In this document: positions 26,300 to 29,201 of the stretch, in pieces
Position numbering within the stretch: the stretch's first letter is position 1
How the letters are laid out: the number at the start of each line of letters is the position of its first letter
NCBI GenBank assembly: GCA_003154775.1
Contig: PMES01000148.1
Coordinates: 1 to 64,000, forward strand
Source of the DNA: Acidobacteriota bacterium
GTDB lineage: Bacteria > Acidobacteriota > Terriglobia > Acidiferrales > UBA7541
Length of the DNA: 64,000 nucleotides
Direction of reading: 5' to 3'
The notes under the pieces: generated by a model
Database searches by the model: none
What the model was told of the DNA's origin: nothing
The model's input: the letters and a program-made list of their open reading frames with translations, nothing else
Made by a program: the position numbers and the translations under genes

Positions 26300-26624
26300 T
26301 TCGTAAAGGTCCTCACAACCTGCTGCATTGAGCATGCCGAAATATGGAGCGGCGTTCGCTTGCGCATGATCGGGAAATTCCTGCGACCCAGCAAACTATT
26401 CTCGCACAAAACTACGCAGTGGGTGGTGCTCCGGAGGAACGCCGACCGGAAATGAATTCGTGTTTCCCAGGCCCGCGTAGACGGGAGCTATTCCCGCGCA
26501 AGTGGATTAGACGCGGAGAATCGCGGGAGAGGCACAAGGCAAGGAAAGAAAGACAGGTGGCGGGAAAGGCTGGCAGCGAAGAGGATTCAGGAGTTTTGCT
26601 CGGCCTGCAAGGTGCTGAACGGGA
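26300..26624. other. divergent region between ccdA and the lipid operon
   Basis: 325 bp with presumably both promoters. A 29-codon reading frame from 26367 was seen but resembles nothing. No clear repeats or RNA elements were noticed. Confidence 0.4.
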
Positions 26625-27370
26625 ATGAGTTGTTTGCGCGGGAGATGGCAAGGGCCTTGCATTGCGGATGGCGTGCGGAGCATCGGGCGAGTGCCAATGG
26701 TTTGGACACCGAACAAAGTGACGCTGTTGCGCGTCTAGTGGGATTTGCGGCGGTGAGTCTGTTTGGCCACGGCGCGTGGATGAATTTGCTGGCGGTGGTG
26801 CTGACGGTGACGTCCATCGCGCTGGATGCGCTGGACGGACACCTGGTGCGAACGCGGAAGATGGCCACGCCGGTGGGCGCGCAGATTGACATTCTGGGGG
26901 ACCGCGTCATCGAGAACATGTACTTCACGTACTTTGCGGTGGTGGGAATGGTGTCGTTGTGGCTGCCGATGTTGTTCTTTGCGCGCGGAGCGGTGACGGA
27001 TTTTCTGCGCGGGCTGGCGATGAGGGCGGGGCATTCGGGGTGGGGCGCGAACGCGATGCTGCAAACGTGGTGGGGGCGCGCGCTGGTGGGGTCGCGATGG
27101 AGCCGCGGAGTGTATGCGGCGCTGAAGTGCGCGTGCTTCTGCTACCTGGGATTGGAGTTGGCGTTAACGCGAGGCCCGGTGCTGCTGGTGGGGCCGATGA
27201 CGGTGGACGCGCACGCGGCGATTCGCGTGGGGGCGCATGTGCTGGCGTGGCTGACAGGAGGATTTTGCGTTGTGCGCGGGCTGCCGGTGCTGCTGGCGGG
27301 CTGGAAGTTTTTTGCGGGGAGCCTGGCCGGCGGGAACTCGGGAAGAGTCACGCGAGGAAACGCGGCATGA
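26625..27370 (+). CDS. CDP-alcohol phosphatidyltransferase, frameshifted near its start
   Basis: An integral membrane enzyme that would transfer a phosphatidyl group from CDP-diacylglycerol to an alcohol (glycerol-3-P, inositol-P or similar). The signature D-x2-D-G-x2-V-R-x8-G-x3-D-x3-D is present as DALDGHLVRTRK...GAQIDILGD (the usual Ala before Arg is Val). The family-typical start MVWTPNKVTLLRV is encoded in a different frame (from 26625, 26691 or 26697) and hits TAG at 26736. The hydrophobic continuation LVGFAAVSLFG is in the -1 frame from 26735. The gene is therefore interrupted by an indel or a read error. Its stop overlaps the next ATG (ATGA). Confidence 0.7.
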
Positions 27371-28119
27371 GCGAAGAAGGCGCGGGGACGCAAGGGATTG
27401 CGGCGTTTTTCGACGTGGACGGCACGCTGATCCCGGAGCCGTCGCTGGAGCGGCGATTCTTCCGCGCGGTGCGGCAGAGCGGCGCGATTCCGGTCGGAAA
27501 TTACTTTCTCTGGGCTCAAGAGGCATTGCGATTGCTGCCCAGGGGAATTGCGGCGACGCTGCACGGCAACAAACGGCACTGGAGCGGGGTGCGGTGCGAT
27601 CAGGTATTGCAACAGATGGAGGCAATTATCTTTTTCGAGGAAGGGATGGAGCGAACGGCGTGGCATGCGCGGCAAGGGCACAGGATCGTGCTGGTCAGCG
27701 GAATGCCGGAGGCGCTGGCGCGGATGGTGGCGCAGGCCGTGGAGTGCGAATTGGAATTCCGAAAGATCGGCAGCCAGGTGCTTGTGTGTGCCACGCGGAT
27801 GGAAGTACGAGACGGAAGGTGGACGGGGCGCTTGCTGGGAGAAGCGATGTATGGCGAAGAAAAGTTTCGCGCGGTAAAGAGCATCGCGCAGGAACAGCGG
27901 ATTGACTTGCGAGGTTCGCACGCGTACGGCAACACACTGCTCGACCGGGCGATGCTTGCGGCGGTGGGACACGTGCATGTGGTGAATCCGGGCAGGGACC
28001 TGGCGGCGGTGGCGAATCAGTGCGACTGGGAGATTTGGCACTGGGTTGTGGAGAAGTCGATGGGGCAGAGCCTGCCTTTGGACGAAACAGTTATGCGAGG
28101 CGGGGAGAGCCGGGCATGA
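27367..28119 (+). CDS. HAD superfamily (IB-type) phosphatase
   Basis: A 250-residue HAD hydrolase with motif I FFDVDGTLI (nucleophile D16, acid/base D18), motif II VLVSGMPEAL, and a C-terminal motif region HAYGNTLLDRAMLAAVGHVHVVNP, where the usual GDSxxD acidic pair is altered to GNTLLD. HAD-IB members include phosphoserine phosphatase and the phosphatidylglycerophosphate phosphatase PgpC. The ATG overlaps the stop of the CDP-alcohol transferase gene by 4 bp, and its own stop overlaps the next ATG, so it is translated with membrane-lipid enzymes. A role in removing the phosphate of a phosphatidyl-alcohol phosphate is the best inference. Confidence 0.8.
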   Translation: MSEEGAGTQGIAAFFDVDGTLIPEPSLERRFFRAVRQSGAIPVGNYFLWAQEALRLLPRGIAATLHGNKRHWSGVRCDQVLQQMEAIIFFEEGMERTAWHARQGHRIVLVSGMPEALARMVAQAVECELEFRKIGSQVLVCATRMEVRDGRWTGRLLGEAMYGEEKFRAVKSIAQEQRIDLRGSHAYGNTLLDRAMLAAVGHVHVVNPGRDLAAVANQCDWEIWHWVVEKSMGQSLPLDETVMRGGESRA

Positions 28120-29201
28120 GCATGAAAAAGGTGCGGAGAGTGGAATCGGCGGCAATCGCTGCGGCCTGGCAGGGGCCGGGCCGCGCGAGCGAGGGCGATG
28201 CCTTCCTGAGAGATGCGGAGCCCGTTGTCGGCAAAGCGCTGAAGCGGATTCACGCGGAAGCTGCTGAGGCGTGGGCGGGGAGTGGCGCCTATGAGCGTGT
28301 GGCGCTGAGCTACCTGGGCATTTCGAGCGCGCTGATTGCCTACTTTGCGAAGAACCTGCAGCACCCAGTTCTGTTGCTGGGCGTGCAAACCGGAGCGGCG
28401 CTGGTGCTGATGCTGCTGTGCTGGGTGGGAACGAGAGCCGCGGCGAAGGAGGCGCGGTTCGGCGTGTCGTTTGGCACGCAATGGTGGCATTTCTGGCGGC
28501 ACTGGTATCCGCACCTGTTTTTCCTGTTTTGTTTCGAGGAACTGGCGCACCTGATGACGCTGTTCTCACCCGAATGGCAAGACGCCAAATTACTGGCGTT
28601 CGATCACTGGTTGACGGGCGTCCAACCGACCATCTGGCTGGAACAGTTCGCCACGCCGCTGCGGAACGACGGCATGCAGTTCTTTTATCTGACGTACTTC
28701 ACCTATCTGCTGATTCTTGGTGGCATTTTGTATTACCGGCGGGAGTGGCAAGCGTACTGGTCGGTGATGACCTACTCGATGGTGGGGTACATGTGCGGAT
28801 ATCTGATCGCGATGTTTTTCCCGATTGAGAGCCCGTGGTTTGCCCTGGCGGGATCGTGGAAGGCGCCGCTGGCTGGCGGGCCGTTCACGGCGACGATTAA
28901 TTTCATCGAGCACTTCGGAAGGGTGAGGGGCGCGGCGTTTCCTTCGGAGCACGTCGCGGGAGCAACGGCGGCAGTGTGGGGCGCGTGGAAGTTTCGACGG
29001 TGGTTGTTCTGGGTGATGCTGCCGTGTTTCTTCCTCATGTGCGTTTCGACGATCTGGGGACGGTACCACTATGTTGCGGACATTTTTGGCGGAATGACGA
29101 CGGGGACGCTGGGGTACGTGATGGGCGATCGGATCATGAAGTGGAAGGGCGCGGTGGCGACGCTGCCGCGGAATGCGAAAGGACAAATGTGGCGCAGTTA
29201 A
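28116..29201 (+). CDS. PAP2/Aur1-like multi-pass membrane enzyme
   Basis: A 361-residue protein with six or more membrane helices. The catalytic pattern of the PAP2 superfamily is seen as FPSEHVAG (residues 275-282, with H279) and STIWGRYHYVADIFGG (311-326, with H318 and D322). The PSEHVAG spelling and the length resemble the PAP2_3/Aur1 inositolphosphotransferase branch more than PgpB. The ~55-residue cytoplasmic N-terminus is not recognised. The start overlaps the HAD phosphatase stop by 4 bp, so the three lipid genes form one coupled unit. The activity is either lipid phosphate hydrolysis or head-group transfer to another lipid; the sequence does not decide. Confidence 0.78.
   Translation: MSMKKVRRVESAAIAAAWQGPGRASEGDAFLRDAEPVVGKALKRIHAEAAEAWAGSGAYERVALSYLGISSALIAYFAKNLQHPVLLLGVQTGAALVLMLLCWVGTRAAAKEARFGVSFGTQWWHFWRHWYPHLFFLFCFEELAHLMTLFSPEWQDAKLLAFDHWLTGVQPTIWLEQFATPLRNDGMQFFYLTYFTYLLILGGILYYRREWQAYWSVMTYSMVGYMCGYLIAMFFPIESPWFALAGSWKAPLAGGPFTATINFIEHFGRVRGAAFPSEHVAGATAAVWGAWKFRRWLFWVMLPCFFLMCVSTIWGRYHYVADIFGGMTTGTLGYVMGDRIMKWKGAVATLPRNAKGQMWRS

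Follow-up and report, generated by a model that had tools for sequence, protein, structure and literature searches.

Three tightly coupled genes in the genome of a soil acidobacterium raise the question of which lipid head group they might build. The first-pass annotation took them for a coupled operon that could make an unusual phospholipid or phosphoceramide head group, suggested a pathway like those for phosphatidylinositol (PI) or inositol phosphorylceramide (IPC), and named PgsA-PgpC-PgpB, for phosphatidylglycerol (PG), as the plain alternative. By the window we mean the whole stretch of DNA that was analysed, 64,000 nucleotides in length; it comes from an Acidobacteriota MAG (G000) that is 98% complete and has Candidatus Acidiferrum typicum UBA7541 as a named relative.

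Three coupled genes and a frame break

A profile search of the window recovers the three families that had been claimed, in order and on the forward strand: a CDP-alcohol phosphotransferase (PF01066, 1.2e-09), a HAD phosphatase (PF12710, 1.9e-25) and a PAP2_3 protein (PF14378, 1.6e-15). We call the genes T, H and P; the features are as follows.

26612..27370, + strand: T, CDP-alcohol phosphotransferase, in the frame of the catalytic motif; this frame lacks the conserved N-terminus
26697..26738, + strand: conserved start of T in the other frame (ATG at 26697, MVWTPNKVTLLRV, then TAG at 26736-26738)
27367..28119, + strand: H, HAD-IB phosphatase, with an ATGA overlap with T
28116..29201, + strand: P, Aur1-like PAP2_3 membrane protein with PSEH and GRYHYVAD, and an ATGA overlap with H

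The two 4-bp ATGA overlaps are found as described (T/H at 27367-27370, H/P at 28116-28119), and both of the Aur1-like motifs reported for P, PSEHVAG and GRYHYVADIFGG, are there. Chance is excluded as the source of this layout, since three named relatives share the gene order and the overlaps. H belongs to the HAD-IB family (TIGR01490, 113 bits against a cut-off of 98.3, with DxDGT in the alignment) and P to PAP2_3 (PF14378, 57.9 bits against a gathering cut-off of 27, with the PSxH and HxxxD residues aligned). The match of P to the phosphoinositol dihydroceramide synthase model NF052609 is weak (14.6-19.1 bits, E 0.017 at 14.6, cut-off 480), which leaves P outside that family. A PADLOC run returned nothing, and literature searches found no description of the T-H-P triad.

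The one structural claim that fails is that of a first gene open from 26625, as this frame stops at the TAG of 26736-26738. The catalytic part of T is read in frame with the GTG at 26612, and the start encoding MVWTPNKVTLLRV belongs to the frame from 26625. Relative to L011, L012 and L013, in which T is an intact protein of 224 amino acids, the window's T is 1 base short. Measured against the nearest relative, dN/dS is 0.074 for T after the break, 0.23 for H and 0.15 for P. T is thus under strong purifying selection past the break, which implies that it was under selection until recently at least. The missing base could have been lost in assembly, or the gene could truly have broken not long ago; the former is possible because another transferase of the same MAG, on contig C49, is interrupted too and contains a residue that cannot be read.

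The motif of T, read from the sequence as DALDGHLVRx8GAQIDILGD, corresponds to the class I CDP-alcohol phosphotransferase motif DxxDGxxARx8GxxxDxxxD. Its aspartates, glycines and arginine are present in T and in all relatives, and the alanine before the arginine, kept in other relatives, is valine in the window and in L068. Six basic residues are invariant in the T family (R70, R97, R105, R137, K144 and R194), which would fit a phosphorylated acceptor. ColabFold models, each built on a four-row alignment, have a mean pLDDT of 43 for T and 42 for P.

Conservation of the unit

T occurs in 43 of the 95 genomes of the order, mostly within the same genus, and in 6 of 247 genomes across the phylum. 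The three genes stand on one strand and in the same order at 27 of the 29 other readable loci of the order, and the remaining two (L072 and L088) are cut by contig ends; the unit is kept, that is, in 27/27 loci not so cut. A distant genome, G235, also carries T-H-P. In family f7 (L053-L056, genomes of about 1.9 Mb) T and H adjoin with neither P beside them nor MIPS in the genome, and at two loci T and H are fused into one open reading frame (L077, 1441-2985 on the + strand; L078, 643-2166 on the - strand). The linkage of the three genes, the T-H pair of f7 and the fusions speak for T and H acting one after the other.

The f7 loci L053-L056 also have a membrane-like protein just upstream of T-H. 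Beside distant PAP2_3 homologues, profiles detected no CDP-alcohol transferase or HAD partner except in G235. In other Acidobacteriota, PAP2_3 homologues have HpnA-like NAD-dependent epimerases immediately upstream (L024, 315-1337; L025, 269-1291), an observation that is uninformative for the operon.

Placement of the transferase

If T were a canonical PgsA, it should group with PgsA in a phylogeny. In a tree of 67 rows, whose long branches limit its reading, T falls together with the f7 transferases in a group of moderate support (80/89), outside the branch of PgsA plus PgsA2 (98/98); the position of this group between PgsA and the PIP synthases (PIPS) has weak support (79/76). Joint clades are marginally disfavoured in each case (p-AU 0.033 for T with PgsA, 0.015 with PgsA2, 0.047 with PIPS). 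T scores 38-49 bits on the PgsA model TIGR00560, for which the cut-off is 109.1, and falls far below the cut-offs of three PIP synthase models (NF045883, 26 against 170; NF040950, 53 against 180; NF052561, 17 against 350 bits). The closest solved relative of T is nonetheless the PgsA of S. aureus (E 5e-4), and profile comparison with hhalign places PgsA nearest, at a score of 100.7 against 83.7 for PIPS, with the AR...LR of TM4 included in the match.

The residues of T are likewise mixed. Along with the PgsA-like AR...LR in TM4 it has DRxxE after the motif, an RxxR-like stretch and then a C-terminal arginine, features that have been discussed for PIP synthase (PMC4634129, PMC6506517). The RxxR-like stretch reads SPxxR in f7, and the alignment of TM5-6 is uncertain. 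We count the T-H-P system in none of the PgsA, PIPS and IPC synthase families.

The same genome holds a separate, canonical PgsA (C130, 154.9 bits against the cut-off of 109.1), as do the seven other genomes examined. PgpA (C35) is apart from the operon, as is PssA, which lies beside a psd-like gene. A second PgsA-like protein is found at L002 (G000:C51); its nearest model is the CDP-alcohol-type cardiolipin synthase, at 124 bits against a cut-off of 240. The T-H-P pathway is probably additional to the genome's own genes for PG, PE and PI.

Inositol and sphingolipid genes

An inositol or ceramide product would call for genes elsewhere in the genome: MIPS is present (C134, 1.5e-99) but unlinked to and independent of the operon, and serine palmitoyltransferase (SPT) is absent from the genome, with no match over the SPT cut-offs. 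The alpha-oxoamine synthases of the genome are limited to Kbl, which lies next to Tdh and passes the PRK06939 cut-off, and BioF, part of a biotin operon; there is therefore no SPT and no obvious ceramide. We rejected the IPC reading on this ground. In f7, two alpha-oxoamine synthases (G004:C13:4384-5553 and G047:C2:141275-142444) score 537-539 bits on the SPT model, whose cut-off is 640, and by this resemblance the genomes that carry them are possible sphingolipid makers.

The distribution of MIPS does not follow T. Across 247 genomes we find no association between the two: MIPS occurs in 26/26 sampled genomes of the same class without T, and it is missing from 4/6 sampled T-bearing genomes, although the window's own genome has it. 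MIPS instead tracks a PIPS-like transferase found in G000 on C49, at about 68694-69289 (L004, L019), whose closest solved relatives are the mycobacterial and Renibacterium PIP synthases. Among the 247 genomes 117 have both genes, 10 and 22 have one only, and 98 have neither (odds ratio 52, Fisher p about 1e-34 without correction for kinship). In six genomes (G178, G186, G209, G224, G232 and G015) the C49-type transferase abuts MIPS, within 0.9 kb. MIPS together with this transferase is the probable PI pathway of Acidobacteriota, and the report of a little phosphatidylinositol in a Terriglobales strain (PMC12935467) fits such a route. The phylogenetic profile and the better PIPS candidate on C49 led us to reject the PI reading of T.

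A proposed accessory head-group pathway and its rivals

What, then, does the operon make? The best explanation, to which we give about an even chance, is an accessory phospholipid head-group pathway. T, assigned to class I by its motif and family, would join a phosphorylated polyol to CDP-diacylglycerol, the polyol phosphate more likely being glycerol 3-phosphate or a related phosphate than inositol phosphate. H would take the terminal phosphate off the product of T, as its family, its coupling and its fusion to T suggest, although its substrate could be another phosphate. P, the weakest step, may pass the phospho-head group on to a different membrane alcohol or act as a lipid phosphatase; its role as a transferase is suggested by family resemblance. 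The linkage, the T-H fusions and the separate PgsA, PgpA and PssA uphold the general idea of an operon for an extra head group, the specific PI/IPC assignment having fallen. Against the accessory pathway stand the frame break of T in this genome, the moderate support for the group of T in the tree and the weak support for where that group is placed.

It is possible, if doubtful, that the operon is a second route to phosphatidylglycerol, in which T would form PGP from glycerol 3-phosphate, with H as a PgpC-like and P as a PgpB-like phosphatase. This would be chemically ordinary, and it agrees with the S. aureus relative and the hhalign result; but T lies outside the PgsA plus PgsA2 branch and below the TIGR00560 cut-off, canonical PgsA is already at hand, and P is a PAP2_3 protein, not a PgpB-type PAP2. 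The plain alternative survives only as such a second, non-housekeeping route. We regard as quite improbable a PI or IPC pathway like that of Bacteroides BT_1522-1526, with T as PIP synthase, H as PIP phosphatase and P as an IPC-type synthase. The genome's MIPS, the resemblance of DRxxE and the RxxR-like stretch to the PIPS pocket (PMC6506517) and the weak NF052609 match of P speak for it, but they are set against the missing SPT, the disfavoured clade of T with PIPS, a MIPS that tracks the C49-type gene, and T-H in f7 genomes that lack MIPS.

The products might also serve a non-bulk role, for example by donating the phospho-head group to LPS or to a polymer of the envelope, P then being the envelope transferase. 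Some enzymes in the family of P shift phosphoalcohol groups from one lipid to another, and LptD-like and CcdA/TlpA-like genes lie near the operon; these neighbours, however, are on the other strand, none was seen in the 1.5 kb flanks of the G235 operon, and we hold this role to be very unlikely.

Under the accessory pathway, T would represent a CDP-alcohol phosphotransferase subfamily that has yet to be characterised and that comes with a phosphatase of its own. The phylum is abundant in soil and its lipids are little understood; the T-H-P system would be set apart from its likely PI pathway. A more specific proposal, which we think rather unlikely, is that P puts the T-H head group on a membrane alcohol other than ceramide. 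The resulting phospholipid class would be undescribed in Acidobacteriota, and if this is true, an Aur1-like enzyme would be at work here without sphingolipids.

Comparison with known systems

The PGP phosphatase PgpC of E. coli is a HAD enzyme, and T-H resembles E. coli PgsA and PgpC in pairing a CDP-alcohol phosphotransferase, whose best solved relative is a PgsA, with a HAD phosphatase. It differs in that T forms a separate group with its own TM5-6 features, is operonic and is fused with H in two genomes, and in that the operon has a PAP2_3 partner in a genome that also encodes canonical PgsA and PgpA. P shares the PSxH and HxxxD motifs and PF14378 with yeast Aur1 and the PAP2_3 family, whereas its genome has no ceramide source, and a search of solved structures by sequence found no relative of P. 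T is like the mycobacterial and Renibacterium PIP synthases (5D91, 6H53, 6H5A) in enzyme family, motif and the arginine after the last motif aspartate, yet the PIPS-like gene of this genome is that on C49 (L004). The cluster BT_1522-BT_1526 of Bacteroides thetaiotaomicron (PMC9246714) likewise unites a CDP-alcohol phosphotransferase, a phosphatase and an Aur1-like protein; there the phosphatase is of PgpA type, MIPS is in the cluster and ceramide comes from SPT, whereas T-H-P has a HAD-IB phosphatase, an unlinked MIPS, no SPT and a T that does not group with PIPS. We file T-H-P as a variant of the bacterial phospholipid head-group pathways.
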